58,710 bases of DNA, from the IMG/VR virus record IMGVR_UViG_3300035034_000546, positions 1 to 58,710 of that record, one strand, 5' to 3'. Below the pieces are notes generated by a model. The model saw only the letters and a list, made by a program, of their open reading frames with translations. It was not told the origin of the DNA and did not search any database. Positions 51,677-57,894 of this stretch are shown one piece after another. A program made the position numbers and the translations under genes. The stretch comes from a virus. Position 1 is the first letter of the stretch; each line of letters starts with the position of its first letter.

Positions 51677-53632
51677 ATGTTAATAGATAATAAAGATAAG
51701 GAAAAATCGGAGTTGTTAGAACTTGCAGCTGATATACGAGATGTTGTTGATAATAAACAAAAAGAGTTAGAACTAACCTTTGTTGAGGATACTCATACAT
51801 ACTTTATTAAAAATAAAGAAGGTTTAATTGTCAGTAACCTTCCAAGTGTATCAACGGTTATATGTCAATTTTATGAGGCGTTTGATGACCTTACAAAGTC
51901 ATTAGATATGTGTAATAATGATTTGAAACTCCAAGATAATTTACTTAAAGACTGGAGAGCAACCGCAACATACGCTAATAGTACTGGGTCAAGAGTCCAT
52001 TTCCTACTAGAAACCGATTTACTTAAAATATATAAATCAGATAAAACAGTAAGAAAACCTATATTTGACTGTAATGAAGAACAAATAGAAGTTGGTAATC
52101 GAATGATAGATGCTGGTCATCAATTCCTACAATTAATGCATAGAAGGGGTGCGGTGTTATTAGACACGGAGATGGTACTAGGTAGTATTGACTTAGGTTA
52201 CACAGGTCAACCAGATAAGGTTTGGTTAATGAGAAACGCTAAGGGTGAATTAGGTTTTATCGTAACGGACTGGAAGGGGTTACCCTTAGACACACCTATT
52301 TTAACTAATCATGGTTGGAGAACTATGGGGACTTTAATAAAGGGTGATATGGTTTACGATAAAGATGGTAATCTAGTTAATATATTAAATATCTCAAAAG
52401 TTAAAAACAAGAAGTGTCTTAAAATTAAATTTGGTAATAACGAAGAGGTGGTTTCTGATTTTGAACATAGATGGTTGGTTTATACTAGTGTTCTTGGTAT
52501 TAAAAAGGAAATGGTTATGACAACTCAGGAAATTAAAGAGTATAACGATAACCTAACCAAACGAGATTCACATAGAATTTTAAAAATAGAAAATGCTAAA
52601 CCATTGAATAACCCCATGATAAACCTACCAGTTGACCCATATGTTTTAGGTCTGTGGTTAGGTGATGAACATAGTGTCGATGCTAAGATAACTCAAGCCA
52701 ACAAGGTTGTTTGGTGTGAAATAAATAATCGTGGGTATGAGATAGGTGATGATGTATCAGAAGGTGGTGTTGGTAAAGCTACGACTAGAACGGTGTTTGG
52801 ATTACATAGTCGGTTAAGGGGGTTGTCATTATTAGGTAATAAACATATTCCAGAAATATACCTATCTAGTTCATATGAACAAAGATTAGATTTATTAAGG
52901 GGTTTAATGGATAGTGGTGGTACATACAACAAAACTAGAAAACGATTCGTAGTGACAACAACTAGGGAATCACAAGCTAATTATTATGTTGAAGTAGCTT
53001 CATCATTAGGCATTAAAACAACAATCATTACATACAATAAGAAATTTAACGGTAAGATTATACCATGTTATAATATGGAATTTACAACAACCGAATTTAA
53101 CCCATTTCTATGTAGAAATCAAGACATTGTATTAACACCCAAAACTAATAAACGATTATATAGAACGATAGTGTCGGTAGAGGTAGTTGACTCAGTACCA
53201 ACTAAATGTATTGAGGTTGATAGCCCTACGAGTACCTTTTTATGTGGTAAATCGTTACTAGTTACACACAACACTAACAAACCGAAAAATTTTGAAACAC
53301 AAGCATGGACTGGTAAGATGAAAGAACCATTTGATAAATTTAGAGATACTTCATTAGAACATTATAAGATTCAGCTACCACTTTATGGTAGGTTAATACT
53401 TGACATGTTGAAGGGTAGTAAATATGAAGGGATAAAATTTTTTGGTTGTATTATTGTTCACTTATTAAGAGACGGTAAATTTGTCGAGTATAGAGTTGAA
53501 CAAGGATGGATTGATATTACATTAAATATGAACCCACTTATTAGAATAGATGAGACTTTGAATTATAAGAAAAATCAAGAAATAAGAGAGGAACAAAGAA
53601 TAAAAGATTATAATAAATTAATAAATGGTTAA
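51677..53632 (+). CDS. PD-(D/E)XK (RecB/Cas4-like) nuclease interrupted by an intein
   Basis: The precursor has 651 residues; removing the 332-aa intein leaves 319. The extein shows the family motifs in order: a His/Glu helix GSRVHFLLETDL (about 103-114), a Glu-containing strand LLDTEMVLGSIDLGYTGQPDKV (Asp of motif II), and the catalytic D-W-K of motif III in FIVTDWK. The intein lies directly after that Lys, so the nuclease should be inactive until spliced. The restored motif, VTDWKTNKPKN, matches the family's DxKT form. It would process DNA ends in recombination or degrade DNA; the neighbouring gp46/47 genes support the first. It is driven from its own host-type promoter. Confidence 0.82.
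   Translation: MLIDNKDKEKSELLELAADIRDVVDNKQKELELTFVEDTHTYFIKNKEGLIVSNLPSVSTVICQFYEAFDDLTKSLDMCNNDLKLQDNLLKDWRATATYANSTGSRVHFLLETDLLKIYKSDKTVRKPIFDCNEEQIEVGNRMIDAGHQFLQLMHRRGAVLLDTEMVLGSIDLGYTGQPDKVWLMRNAKGELGFIVTDWKGLPLDTPILTNHGWRTMGTLIKGDMVYDKDGNLVNILNISKVKNKKCLKIKFGNNEEVVSDFEHRWLVYTSVLGIKKEMVMTTQEIKEYNDNLTKRDSHRILKIENAKPLNNPMINLPVDPYVLGLWLGDEHSVDAKITQANKVVWCEINNRGYEIGDDVSEGGVGKATTRTVFGLHSRLRGLSLLGNKHIPEIYLSSSYEQRLDLLRGLMDSGGTYNKTRKRFVVTTTRESQANYYVEVASSLGIKTTIITYNKKFNGKIIPCYNMEFTTTEFNPFLCRNQDIVLTPKTNKRLYRTIVSVEVVDSVPTKCIEVDSPTSTFLCGKSLLVTHNTNKPKNFETQAWTGKMKEPFDKFRDTSLEHYKIQLPLYGRLILDMLKGSKYEGIKFFGCIIVHLLRDGKFVEYRVEQGWIDITLNMNPLIRIDETLNYKKNQEIREEQRIKDYNKLING
52277..53272 (+). mobile_element. 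Class 3-type intein in the nuclease active site, endonuclease probably inactive
   Basis: The intein is 332 residues. It starts with Gly (GLPLDTPILTNHGWRTMG) and ends VTHN before Thr+1. The class 3 triad is present: Trp at intein position 66 (EHRWLV), Cys at 311 (TKCIEVD) and Thr at 330. The splicing domain resembles the helicase intein (PL-x-x-x-x-LT-x-x-GW-x-TMG), so the two are related. The LAGLIDADG motifs are damaged: LWLGDE keeps one Asp, but GLMDSGG has Gly where the catalytic Asp belongs. Confidence 0.85.
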
Positions 53633-53705
53633 AAAGGAAGAGTTTATTAAATCAGTAAAAGTTTTTACCGATAAACATGTTGAAATAAAATTATTATGGC
53701 AGTAA
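53625..53705 (+). CDS. Possible 26-residue peptide bridging nuclease and gp47 genes
   Basis: An ATG-started frame overlaps the end of the nuclease gene (ATGGTTAA) and the start of the gp47 gene (ATGGCAGTAA). This is the same coupling style used by confirmed neighbours. The peptide is basic (MVKKEEFIKSVKVFTDKH and onward). Very short; not shown to be expressed. Confidence 0.35.
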   Translation: MVKKEEFIKSVKVFTDKHVEIKLLWQ

Positions 53706-54382
53706 AGAAAATTGTGCATTTTGCAGATGTACATATCAGAACATTCAGAATGCACGATGTCTACGGAGAAGTCTTTAAAACCTTTCTAAAAGAGATTAGA
53801 GTGCTTGTAAAGGGCTTTGAGAGAGATGAGGTACGAATTGTTATCGTAGGGGATTTAGTTCACCAGAAGATAACCATATCGAACGAGTTACTTACATTAG
53901 GTACTTGGTTCTTAAAGAAGTTAGAAAAGATTGCTCCACTTAGAATTGTGGCTGGTAATCATGATTTCATTGAGAACAATAAAGATAGATTAGACTCTAT
54001 CACACCAATGGTAGCTCTTTTAGACGGTTTAGATATTGAATATTATAAAGGGGATAGTGATTGTCACTTAGATGATAACATTGTTTGGTGTAACTACTCA
54101 ATCTTTGATGAAGAGAAAAGACCAGATATTGAAACGGCTAGAACAACGCATGGTCCAGATAAGCACTATATTGGCCTTTATCATGCGCCATTAGTTGGGT
54201 TAAAGACGGATACGGGTTATGAATTTGAACATGGAAATGATGTTACTATATTTAATAGTTGTGATATTGTTATGTGTGGTGATATCCACAAAAGAAGTGT
54301 ACTATATAATATTGAATATATGGAAATTGAGGAAGACGAATTAGAAAGCTATGAAAAAATAGGGTGGGTTATTGATGAATAA
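53696..54382 (+). CDS. sbcD: gp47/SbcD (Mre11-type) nuclease, N-terminal catalytic fragment
   Basis: All five phosphoesterase motifs are present in order: ADVHI (D11, H13), VGDLVHQK (D53), AGNHDF (N88, H89, D90), LYHAPL (about 162-167) and CGDIHKR (about 195-201). The protein then stops after an unusual tail (SVLYNIEYMEIEEDELESYE and eight more residues) instead of continuing into the capping region. It has 228 residues, against 339 in T4 gp47. The missing part appears 83 bases downstream in another frame (54466-54690). Together with gp46 it would form the DNA-end processing complex. Whether the two fragments assemble is unknown. Confidence 0.85.
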   Translation: MAVKKIVHFADVHIRTFRMHDVYGEVFKTFLKEIRVLVKGFERDEVRIVIVGDLVHQKITISNELLTLGTWFLKKLEKIAPLRIVAGNHDFIENNKDRLDSITPMVALLDGLDIEYYKGDSDCHLDDNIVWCNYSIFDEEKRPDIETARTTHGPDKHYIGLYHAPLVGLKTDTGYEFEHGNDVTIFNSCDIVMCGDIHKRSVLYNIEYMEIEEDELESYEKIGWVIDE

Positions 54383-54465
54383 TGTTCTTTTGTAATGTTA
54401 TGATATAGATTTTATGACAAATATAAAAATTTAATAATTTGGTTTAATGATATAAAAAAATATTT

Positions 54466-54690
54466 ATGGGAAAAATTAAAATAAAAAAAATAATTCCAGT
54501 TGTGATGCCAAGCTCACTAATACAACAGAACTTTGGCGAGACCGTATCTAAACATGGGTTCTTATGGTGGGATTTAGATACTAAAACATTTGAAGAGTAT
54601 GATATTAAAACAAATCATGGGTTTTATCAGTTTAAAATAAAATCCATGGACGACTTAGATAATAATTCTGAGAAGTTAACTAATTTATAA
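54466..54690 (+). CDS. sbcD: gp47/SbcD C-terminal fragment (74 aa)
   Basis: It begins MGKIKIKKIIPVVMPSSLIQ, then runs QNFGETVSKHGFLWWDLDTK, then FEEYDIKTNHGFYQFKIKS. The PSSLIQQNFGE...HGFLWWD stretch is the well-known continuation of Mre11/SbcD proteins after the last catalytic motif. It therefore completes the gene at 53696-54382, but in a different frame and behind a stop. It has its own ATG with the A-rich start context used elsewhere, so it may be translated as a separate subunit rather than being dead sequence. Confidence 0.75.
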   Translation: MGKIKIKKIIPVVMPSSLIQQNFGETVSKHGFLWWDLDTKTFEEYDIKTNHGFYQFKIKSMDDLDNNSEKLTNL

Positions 54691-54708: not shown

Positions 54709-54981
54709 ATGAAGATGACATTAGAAGAGTTAAAGAAATTCCTTAATGGATTACCAGAATCGTTTAATACATTTAGTGTGGTAAATGGTGAGGTTGGTAC
54801 TGTACCAAAAGAAAATGACCAAGAAGGTGATATGGTTTATCGTTGTGATAAACCAATTGTAACCCTTTACGTTGACGAAAAGACTAAGGAAGTATGTTTC
54901 TTTCACCAAACAGATAAAGAAGTTACTGATATTGCTGGAGAAGGATATTTTAATGATGGGGTGGAAGAAGATGGAGTATAA
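54709..54981 (+). CDS. Uncharacterised 90-aa protein between gp47 and gp46 genes
   Basis: A small acidic alpha/beta protein: helix KMTLEELKKFLNGLPESFNT, then a strand VVNGEVG, then IVTLYVDEKTKEVCFFHQT, with an acidic end. It shows no known motif. The layout (short helix, then a beta hairpin) is common in small phage accessory proteins. Its stop overlaps the next start by one base, so it is co-translated with the coiled-coil protein. Confidence 0.55.
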   Translation: MKMTLEELKKFLNGLPESFNTFSVVNGEVGTVPKENDQEGDMVYRCDKPIVTLYVDEKTKEVCFFHQTDKEVTDIAGEGYFNDGVEEDGV

Positions 54982-55487
54982 TGGAATTACCAAATAAACT
55001 ATATGATGAAATATTTGAGTACTGTAGATTAAACAAAATCACAGATATTGATAGCTTTACAATAAAAATGGTAAAGCAAGGGTTCACTGTCGAGAAATAC
55101 GGTACCACCCCATCTGAGCGTGTGGTTGAAAAGGAAGTAGAGAAAATCGTTGAAGTCCCAGTTGAAGTAGAGAAAATCGTTGAAGTCATCAAAGAGGTTG
55201 AAGTCATCAAAGAGGTTAAGGTTACTGATGATAGTGAAACTCAAAGATTGATTGATAGGGTTAATATATTAGAATCTGACATTGAAATAACTCAAAAAAA
55301 TAATGCGGTAATAAGTCTTGAGTCTGGAAATAGGGCTAAAACTATAATGGAACTAACCAAAGAAATAGACCAACTTAAAAAAGAGTTGGAGGTTGAAACT
55401 AAAAAAACCAAAGATACCCCAAAGAAAGATATTTATGGTGAAGATAAAAGGGGGTTTTTCGGTTCTAACACAAAAGATATGTTATAA
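54981..55487 (+). CDS. Coiled-coil protein with Val/Glu repeats (168 aa)
   Basis: The N-terminal 50 residues form a small helical domain (PNKLYDEIFEYCRLNKITDI, then MVKQGFTVEKYGTTP) that recurs in Bacteroidetes phage proteins. Residues about 52-80 are a tandem repeat of VEKIVEVPVE and VIKEVE type, encoded by almost identical DNA units. A long coiled coil follows (about 85-145). The C-terminus GEDKRGFFGSNTKDML is conserved-looking and could be a docking peptide. It lies directly before gp46, itself a coiled-coil protein, with only one base between stop and start. That suggests, without proof, an accessory role for gp46/47. Confidence 0.6.
   Translation: MELPNKLYDEIFEYCRLNKITDIDSFTIKMVKQGFTVEKYGTTPSERVVEKEVEKIVEVPVEVEKIVEVIKEVEVIKEVKVTDDSETQRLIDRVNILESDIEITQKNNAVISLESGNRAKTIMELTKEIDQLKKELEVETKKTKDTPKKDIYGEDKRGFFGSNTKDML
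55134..55217 (+). repeat. Two adjoining tandem repeats inside the coiled-coil gene
   Basis: A 24-base unit (starting GAAGTAGAGAAAATCGTTGA) is present twice with a 30-base period (55134-55157, 55164-55187). It is followed by two exact 18-base units, GAAGTCATCAAAGAGGTT (55182-55199, 55200-55217). Identity at the DNA level points to recent duplication; both unit lengths keep the reading frame. Confidence 0.85.
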
Positions 55488-55488
55488 T

Positions 55489-57894
55489 ATGGAAGAAATA
55501 GTGAAAACTAGTGTGAAGATACCACATTTAGCTAAGATTAAAGTATATTGGGACGATTCACCAGAAAACTATAGTAAAGAGAATAAAACAATTGTAAGGA
55601 ATCATTTTGCTCAAAAGTATGGTGTATCTAAAGCCAATATAAATGTTGTCTATCGACCAGTTAAAACCAATAATAAAGGTGAGACGGTTGAAATATCGGG
55701 TGCTGGTATTGAGAATATCATGGATACGGGGTATCAAAGAGAATTATTTAAAGAATGGTTAACTAGAGAAGACAAAGGGGTTGATTTTAATAGGTTAATA
55801 AAATTAGACGATAAAATTAATTCGGAGTTAAATATTGGTTCTAGTGATACAGCACATAAGAATTGGTCATTGAAATGGATGATGTTAAACGGTTTTTTAT
55901 GTTTCGGTCCAAATAACTTCATATCATTTTCAAATCTTAATGGTCTTACGATTGTAAACTCATATCCAGAGAATCAAGGTGGTAAAACCACATTTTCGGT
56001 AGATGCCTTTAAATTCCTACTTTATGGTAAAACAACTAAAACTGATAAGAATGAACAAATATTCAATCAATATTGGGACAATAATGAATTAGTTGTTAGA
56101 GGAATGCTCACACTTGAAGATAAGGAAATTATTATAGAAAGAGTCCTCACTAGAAAGGCAAAACGTAATGGTGATTGGAATGTAACCAATAAATTAAATT
56201 TCTATGAGATATTACCAGATGGTGAAGAGATAGAAATGAACGATGAAGATGCTAAAGCAACAACTGAGGAAATTAAAGTATCAGTTGGTTCTGAGCATGA
56301 TTTTGAGTTGGTTACACTAGCAACAGCAAGAAACCTTGACGACCTAATTGGTCTTACTACAACTGAAAGTGGTAAGTTATTAACTAGATTTATAGGGTTA
56401 GAGATAATTGAGCTTAAATCTGAGGTTGCTAGAAAACTTTACAATACCTTTGCTAAAACTAAGAAGTCAAATCATTATGATATCATTACACTTAGAGGTG
56501 AGATTGATGGTTATGAGGACAATAGTGGTGAAGAACCAGTTAATGTTTCTGGACATATTAAGTTGATTGAAGAAGCTAATAAATCGTTGACCACTCAACA
56601 AGATGGACTTAAAACTAACGAAGAATTAATCACCAAATACAATGATGAGAAAGATAAGCTATTAAGTGGTAAGAAACAAATTGATGCTGAAATACTCACA
56701 CTTAACCCATCTAACTTAACAGAAAAGATAGATGCGATTACAGCTACTGGGGTGGCTAAAAAAGAAAGGATTAGTGAGTTGGTCACAATCATTGAACCAC
56801 TTAAATTAATTAAATTTAATGAAGACCATCACCATACCTTAACCATCAAACAATCAGATAAGACAAGTGATGTTGCAGTTAAAGAAGCAGAAGCTGAAAG
56901 GCTTTTAACGGTTATTAATGAGTTGATTTCTGGTGGTATATGCCAAGCGTGTAACCGAGAATTAGATAATGTTGATAATACGGCACACATAGCCGAACAC
57001 CAAAACTCTAGACAAAAGATTTTAGATAAAATAACTGAACTAAATAATGAATTAGTTCTAATTAAGACTGAATTAGATGGGATGTCTGAAACAAAGGCTA
57101 AAATTGACTCTAAAGATAAATTAGAAGTTGAAAAGGACAGAGTTGAGTTAGAACTTGAGAACCTTAGAACTAAAATCAAGTCTAAGAAAGAGGACCTTAA
57201 GCGGTATGATGCTAATTTAGATAGTATTAAATTCAATAATGATATTGATAGTAAGATAGAGATGGTTAAGACCAAACTAAAAGTATGTGAACACACTAAA
57301 ACTGAATTAACGCAGAAGATTGAGAGAACTAAGATGGATATCACTAATCATGAGACTAATATTACCACTAAAGAGAACTTAATTGAACAAATTAAGAAAG
57401 AGGAAGAGGTTGATAAGTTATTCAAGGTCTATATTGATATGGTTGGTAAGAAAGGTATAAGTAAACTTGTTTTAAGGTCTGTACTTCCGATTATTAACTC
57501 TGAGGTCCAAAGATTGTTAGATGGTGTTGTTGATTTTGATGTGGAGATATTTATTAATGATAAGAATGATGTTCAATTCATGATAATTAAGGACGAAGTT
57601 GAAAAACACTTGAAGTCTGGTAGTGGGTTAGAAACAACTGCGGCTAGTATTGCTTTAAGATGTGTATTAGGTAAGATGTCGTGTCTACCAATGCCTAACT
57701 TCATAACATTTGATGAAGTTCTTGGTAAGGTTGCTAGAGTCAACATACCACTAATGAAACCATTATTCGATAAGATTACGGATATGTACGATACTGTGTT
57801 CTTTATAACACATGATGAAGAGGTAAAGGATTGGTCAAATAATACCATTACGATAATCAAAGAGGATAATGTCTCAAGATTGACAATTAAATAG
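55489..57894 (+). CDS. sbcC: gp46/SbcC (Rad50-type) ATPase of the recombination nuclease
   Basis: I chose the ATG one base after the previous stop, giving 801 residues (T4 gp46 has 560). Walker A is PENQGGKTTF (about 160-168). The coiled coil carries a zinc hook CQAC (485-488), the signature motif is SGSGLETTAASIALR (about 710-725) and Walker B is NFITFDEVLG (about 736-745). The ATPase pulls DNA ends for the gp47 nuclease. About 140 residues precede the usual N-terminal lobe; the extension (KIKVYWDDSPENYSKENKTI and onward) is not normal for gp46. It looks like a separate small domain. The partner nuclease gene is split. Confidence 0.88.
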   Translation: MEEIVKTSVKIPHLAKIKVYWDDSPENYSKENKTIVRNHFAQKYGVSKANINVVYRPVKTNNKGETVEISGAGIENIMDTGYQRELFKEWLTREDKGVDFNRLIKLDDKINSELNIGSSDTAHKNWSLKWMMLNGFLCFGPNNFISFSNLNGLTIVNSYPENQGGKTTFSVDAFKFLLYGKTTKTDKNEQIFNQYWDNNELVVRGMLTLEDKEIIIERVLTRKAKRNGDWNVTNKLNFYEILPDGEEIEMNDEDAKATTEEIKVSVGSEHDFELVTLATARNLDDLIGLTTTESGKLLTRFIGLEIIELKSEVARKLYNTFAKTKKSNHYDIITLRGEIDGYEDNSGEEPVNVSGHIKLIEEANKSLTTQQDGLKTNEELITKYNDEKDKLLSGKKQIDAEILTLNPSNLTEKIDAITATGVAKKERISELVTIIEPLKLIKFNEDHHHTLTIKQSDKTSDVAVKEAEAERLLTVINELISGGICQACNRELDNVDNTAHIAEHQNSRQKILDKITELNNELVLIKTELDGMSETKAKIDSKDKLEVEKDRVELELENLRTKIKSKKEDLKRYDANLDSIKFNNDIDSKIEMVKTKLKVCEHTKTELTQKIERTKMDITNHETNITTKENLIEQIKKEEEVDKLFKVYIDMVGKKGISKLVLRSVLPIINSEVQRLLDGVVDFDVEIFINDKNDVQFMIIKDEVEKHLKSGSGLETTAASIALRCVLGKMSCLPMPNFITFDEVLGKVARVNIPLMKPLFDKITDMYDTVFFITHDEEVKDWSNNTITIIKEDNVSRLTIK

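Follow-up and report, generated by a model that had tools for sequence, protein, structure and literature searches.

The gp47/SbcD gene of the phage represented by IMG/VR record IMGVR_UViG_3300035034_000546 (analysed over its whole 58,710 nucleotides, hereafter the window) codes for its Mre11-type nuclease in two parts, the result of a past insertion of a selfish endonuclease gene into gp47. Comparison with relatives establishes the split, a mobile endonuclease cassette as its cause, protein tails that travel with that cassette, a remnant of the endonuclease in the window and, in other lineages, genes that have been re-fused. That the two pieces together form an active nuclease is inferred, with only indirect support (low dN/dS and a predicted hairpin) and no experiment on association or activity. 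The explanation as a whole, running from invasion by a homing cassette through two-chain expression, docking by the tails and decay of the endonuclease to re-fusion elsewhere, is one that we regard as probable.

Structure of the two-piece gp47/SbcD gene

The gene comprises two ORFs in different frames separated by exactly 83 bases (Table 1), and all of its catalytic motifs lie in the first; on each of these points the original prediction was borne out. ORF 1 matches the Metallophos family PF00149 (1.5e-7) and the phage SbcD family phrog_100 (4.6e-15), with family matches reaching residue 208. As expected of an Mre11/SbcD/gp47 protein, the metal motifs ADxH, GD, GNHD and GDIH of the calcineurin-like phosphoesterase domain are conserved in the alignment, and a gp46/SbcC partner is encoded nearby.

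Table 1. Features of the split gp47/SbcD locus and its gp46/SbcC partner (window coordinates)
Feature	Position	Strand	Details
ORF 1	53696-54382	+	228 aa
gp47A core, with the phosphoesterase domain and every metal motif; ends in ...MCGDIHKR	53696-54295	+	PF00149, phrog_100; 83% identity with intact L002
Tail 1: 28 cassette-derived codons SVLYNIEYMEIEEDELESYEKIGWVIDE and stop, in the gp47A frame	54296-54382	+	Aligns with the tails at nine further split loci
Spacer of 83 bases: what is left of a decayed class A homing-endonuclease gene	54383-54465	+	DNA similarity to the L043 and L012 elements
Endonuclease C-terminal scrap with one frameshift	54399-54475	+	Matches L012 endonuclease; overlaps start of ORF 2
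ORF 2	54466-54690	+	74 aa, in a frame other than that of ORF 1
Tail 2: own ATG, MGKIKIKKI, N-terminal extension of gp47B	54466-54492	+	Similar basic starts (M.KKIKIKK) at other split loci
gp47B core: remainder of nuclease domain, C-terminus (IPVVMPSSLIQQNFGE...) and stop	54493-54690	+	80% identity with L002 counterpart
gp46/SbcC partner gene, intact	55492-57894	+	800 aa; phrog_77, 1.5e-42, over 49-798

The limits of the insert were defined by alignment with intact relatives. In the closest of these, L002, gp47 is one uninterrupted frame. Homology to the L002 protein is lost after GDIHKR (54295) and regained at IPVVMPSSLIQQNFGE (54493), and between these points the intact protein has only seven residues (QSWVHKD). 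About 25 foreign codons had been proposed at this junction: a foreign insert is indeed present, but its extent was misjudged, there being 28 codons and a stop on the first piece, then the spacer, then a new ATG with about nine codons on the second. The continuous frame that an intein would require across its insertion point is absent, with a stop after tail 1 and a new ATG in another frame.

The spacer, previously taken for a non-coding AT-rich stretch, is instead what is left of a homing-endonuclease gene. The motif YDIDFMTN (54399-54422) is followed in the next frame by DKYKNLIIWFNDIKKYLWEK (54416-54475), and these correspond in consecutive order, across one frameshift, to residues 263-271 and 272-292 of the L012 endonuclease. 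At the DNA level the spacer resembles the L043 element (p=0.001, 1000 dinucleotide shuffles) and the L012 element (p=0.009), and shows no similarity to elements of class B (see below). The endonuclease gene in the window has thus been deleted down to a frameshifted scrap.

Two neighbouring features may be recorded here. Upstream, an exonuclease gene (51677-53632; phrog_298) contains an intein whose endonuclease domain is of LAGLIDADG type (PF05204, 6.7e-7; PF14528, 4.9e-5); this intein is absent from the L002 gene, at TDWK/TNKPK, and an intein is present at the same site in L006. Between gp47 and gp46 lies a small conserved gene (54981-55487) with repeated EKIVEV/IKEVEV segments whose number varies among relatives.

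Split relatives, endonucleases and tails

About 19 other distinct phage sequences, belonging to two gp47 clades that are distant from each other, have their break at this same position, directly behind GDIH, the last of the metal motifs. A first scan yielded seven intact relatives and one, L006, whose gene has its break at the same residue. A broader scan, covering one gp47 clade, took in 80 loci, most of them intact, and gave 11 distinct split sequences besides the window; a scan for tails added L113 and L118, and L131 was recognised among the class B relatives. Split genes in the second, distant clade, where gp47 and gp46 form one chain, are L218, L222, L224 and L258. The gp47 gene is also split in LR756508, a 484-kb uncultured huge phage and the sole record in which the tail was found in a collection of 50,697 phage records. 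No second isolate of the window phage was seen.

As is expected of genes in pieces, gp47 is split where close relatives are intact: the nearest intact relatives without tails are L253 (97% identity in the catalytic domain), L171 (94%), L080 and L049 (both 90%) and L002 (83%). The split state is scattered across the trees of both clades, with at least 11 changes of the intact label on starred (well-supported) branches in the first (where L050, discussed below, is labelled intact and its re-fused state is ignored by the count) and at least six on well-supported branches in the second. Homing gains and losses are both likely sources of such changes; the counts alone cannot separate them.

Many of the split relatives hold a complete homing-endonuclease gene at the identical site, which supports the idea, put forward in the original prediction, that the split is the scar of a mobile element that left a two-piece nuclease. 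Full genes flanked by both tails are of three types: class A in L006 (294 codons, between the gp47 pieces), L011, L012, L043 and LR756508; class B in L034, L065, L084 and L113; and a third type in L118. The C-terminal domain of class A (SSWEE...PDFLI..LEVKGY) gives matches to TnsA-like nucleases (for LR756508 at 5.8e-6, which passes the Pfam cut-off), and the N-terminus of these enzymes matches phrog_1271, an HNH endonuclease. Class B has a Vsr/PvuRts1I-like domain, with Pfam scores below threshold, and matches homing or HNH endonuclease PHROGs, whilst the L118 protein matches phrog_3339 (homing endonuclease, 5e-7) and is HNH-like by eye. The same tails thus flank at least three kinds of endonuclease. 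The enzyme lost from the window belongs to a PD-(D/E)xK-like class, and not to the HNH type to which it had been linked. The endonuclease expected between the halves of a gene in pieces is complete in relatives and present only as a remnant in the window.

Several further observations concern these elements. Class A endonucleases at L006 3767-4651 and L013 1748-2665 match phrog_218 ('head closure'; 1.8e-6 and 2.3e-10, respectively) over the nuclease domain. Two more HNH-like endonuclease genes lie on the minus strand of L006 (2166-2933 and 5204-5857), less than 2 kb from the split gp47, so this region is crowded with mobile endonucleases. In L029 and L034 an inverted repeat (TTGTTGTATTATT...AATAATACAACAA in L029) directly follows the gp47A stop, ahead of the class B endonuclease start, and could possibly form a hairpin controlling translation of that endonuclease.

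Both halves carry extra mobile-element tails, a further hallmark of genes in pieces. Tail 1, common to all the split genes, adds about 28 residues to piece 1 (..EI.E-EL-.YLK.GW.ID). Tail 2, where visible, is a short basic N-terminal extension of piece 2 (M.KKIKIKK), more divergent in L113 and LR756508 (MIKMKKVIP and MSDDKYRVKRVWP); L068, L222 and L258 stop before the second piece, so that tail 2 cannot be seen there. Between L006 and L011, identity is 94-100% per 50 bases from the tail 1 boundary, through the endonuclease, to the tail 2 boundary, but only 54-80% over most of the gp47 parts outside the cassette. Tails and endonuclease therefore moved as one unit. Between the clades (and LR756508), catalytic domains share 34-42% and tail 1 33-58%.

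We could not assign tail 1 to any known domain: it has no match in PHROGs, no relatives were found among 84,980 genomes, and in the subset of loci covered by a pattern scan it turned up in gp47 only. An ELxxYxxxGW likeness to a module associated with HNH endonucleases had been suggested; since the tail was found only in split or re-fused gp47 and matches no PHROGs family, this likeness is not demonstrated.

Loss of the endonuclease is not confined to the window. Remnants are also present at L029, L030, L099, L218 and L224, and a truncated endonuclease at L131, so that the tails are kept at seven loci whose endonuclease is lost or truncated. Of a class B gene, L029 retains just the N-terminal zinc-finger part and L030 just the C-terminal one; as their gp47 genes are nearly identical but the remnants differ, the deletions were separate. 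L099, L218 and L224 retain other pieces of the endonuclease.

In two other lineages the gene is again a single frame, which still contains the tails in full or in part. L050 and L051 have both tails internal to one open frame, and in L229, L230 and L256 a shortened tail 1 is joined to tail 2. The presence of the tail within a single gp47 had been named in advance as an outcome that would refute the scar interpretation. On sequence grounds, these genes are best read as re-fused descendants of split ones, because sister genes lack the tail and L229 has only part of it. Separately, the intact gp47 of L096 (3001-3825), a sister of split L065, has a slightly longer loop (GGFTLKQGKKNIPIMM) that may be a nearly clean excision scar.

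Selection, predicted structure and alternative explanations

Relative to intact L002, gp47A has dN 0.13 and dS 1.05, and gp47B dN 0.15 and dS 1.57. The resulting dN/dS of about 0.1 for each piece indicates that both halves are under purifying selection. For tail 1, differences summed over seven pairs fall 54/45/87 by codon position (p=1e-4), a third-position excess that is weak in pairs made up solely of loci without endonuclease (p=0.03 for window/L099, others not significant).

Structure was predicted from intact rows only, because a joint alignment of split pieces and intact proteins misaligned the tails. The AlphaFold model of re-fused L050 has a mean pLDDT of 85.5 and a pTM of 0.85, with pLDDT 76-92 in the insert block, and its best Foldseek matches are Mre11/SbcD. 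In this model tail 1 forms a strand (198-209) and a helix (210-218) and tail 2 a strand (231-242), which we read as one long beta-hairpin where an intact protein is expected to have a short one. What was modelled is a re-fused relative and not two separate chains in complex, and the insert lacks alignment support. When gp47A from the window is predicted alone the helix is present and the tail strand absent, which fits, without proving, pairing with tail 2. Taken together with conservation, the model suggests that the tails probably dock the two halves in trans.

We propose that an ancestral single gp47/SbcD gene was invaded right after the GDIH codons by a cassette in which an endonuclease gene lies between tail 1 and tail 2. 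Its enzyme probably cleaves uninterrupted gp47 genes at this conserved spot, an inference, and donor-templated repair would then copy the whole non-homologous block, so that both tails would arrive with the endonuclease. Two polypeptides would be made, gp47A ending in tail 1 and gp47B starting from its own ATG with tail 2. One strand and a helix from tail 1 and the opposite strand from tail 2 would give a lengthened version of the hairpin cut by the insertion, most likely bringing the chains back together as a single Mre11-type nuclease still able to work with gp46, as inferred from model and conservation. In the window, deletion would have reduced the endonuclease to its frameshifted scrap, with the two tails and the two ORFs retained because the phage depends on them; in other lineages re-fusion would have left the tails as an internal insertion.

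Several alternatives have to be weighed against this. The tails might be an old surface loop of some gp47 proteins that endonucleases later invaded, making L050 the ancestral state; both tails do lie in one open frame in L050/L051 and both arms fit a single hairpin. Yet sister genes 83-97% identical to split ones have the short hairpin, the tails travel within the transferred block, and L229, which nests with split L224 and intact L253, joins a truncated tail 1 to tail 2 as a deletion would. We consider an old loop unlikely. It is also quite unlikely that the tails serve the endonuclease, through expression, DNA binding or site protection, and not the joining of the halves: they persist after its loss, re-fused genes keep all or part of them, and there is one per half, the pair making a hairpin in the model, even though they always adjoin the endonuclease at loci that have it in full. 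The two frames and the frameshifted remnant separating them could also mark a dead gene heading for loss, but the low dN/dS of both pieces, the retention of tails and second start at several endonuclease-less loci and the intact gp46 partner make a disabled gp47 decidedly improbable.

The T4 gene 60 precedent, in which a gap is bypassed (PMC11194080), raises the idea that RNA splicing or ribosome bypass might still yield a single continuous protein. This is very improbable. When the window and ten of the split loci were scanned with Rfam, no intron family matched at E<=1, so that the conserved catalytic RNA core of a group I intron is not found and the expectation that genes in pieces lack a self-splicing intron is fulfilled; folding of the junction is no better than that of shuffled sequences (z -0.13), and 83 nt is very short for a group I intron. 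In bypass of the T4 gene 60 type, translation resumes past the gap at matched take-off and landing codons and needs no new start codon; against it, at all split loci where this was examined piece 2 starts with an ATG of its own. An RNA intron was rejected on the scans and the folding. Although the window comes from a metagenome-derived virus record, a sequencing or assembly artefact can hardly be entertained and is refuted by the identical break residue and tails in many independent contigs from many metagenomes; with the same two-piece structure recurring in this way, the split is neither chance nor sequencing error.

Known systems and implications

The nearest precedent for split gp47, by analogy, appears to be nrdA/mobE of Aeromonas phage Aeh1, reportedly the subject of Crona et al. 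2011, and it is closer than T4 39/60. In the nrdA-a/mobE/nrdA-b arrangement of Aeh1, a split ribonucleotide reductase, a free-standing endonuclease likewise splits a conserved gene without an intron (PMC2988022). There, however, the gene is another one, whereas the gp47 tails are portable, being shared across divergent phages and three endonuclease types, outlast the endonuclease and are found in re-fused genes; by eye, they have no recognisable homology with the Aeh1 NrdA tails. The T4 topoisomerase comparison offered in the original prediction holds in that genes 60/mobA/39 also combine endonuclease insertion with a two-polypeptide enzyme (PMC2988022), but T4 gene 60 has its bypassed gap, whilst gp47 shows no evidence of bypass and the window endonuclease is nearly gone. 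Genes 43A/43B of Aeromonas phage 44RR, a split DNA polymerase with intercistronic untranslated sequence, resemble the window in having two pieces, a spacer and no endonuclease, and the origin of that split was left open (PMC2988022); for gp47, there are relatives that still bear the endonuclease. Inteins and group I introns that carry homing endonucleases similarly house a mobile endonuclease in a conserved gene without destroying it. The gp47 cassette differs in using neither protein nor RNA splicing, and is tolerated apparently through two-chain docking.

In the open-access literature searched, we found no report of a split SbcD/gp47 with a homing endonuclease. Within that literature, the sharing of tails across endonuclease types and the series of decay and re-fusion go beyond the reports found. 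We lean, if only slightly, towards a broader interpretation in which the cassette would be the equivalent, at the level of protein, of introns and inteins: a matched strand pair, shared by different endonucleases, would clip the host halves together through an inter-chain beta-hairpin, and endonuclease loss with re-fusion would donate a structural insertion to the host protein.

These results explain how an important enzyme can accommodate a selfish gene in its middle without an intron or intein, and natural sequences show the whole life cycle, from the empty site through the full and the decayed cassette to the re-fused gene. As the putative docking tails are conserved and common to different endonucleases, the clip hypothesis is directly testable, and the tails could offer a small natural split-protein tag. 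Two-piece phage genes of this kind need not be pseudogenes or errors.
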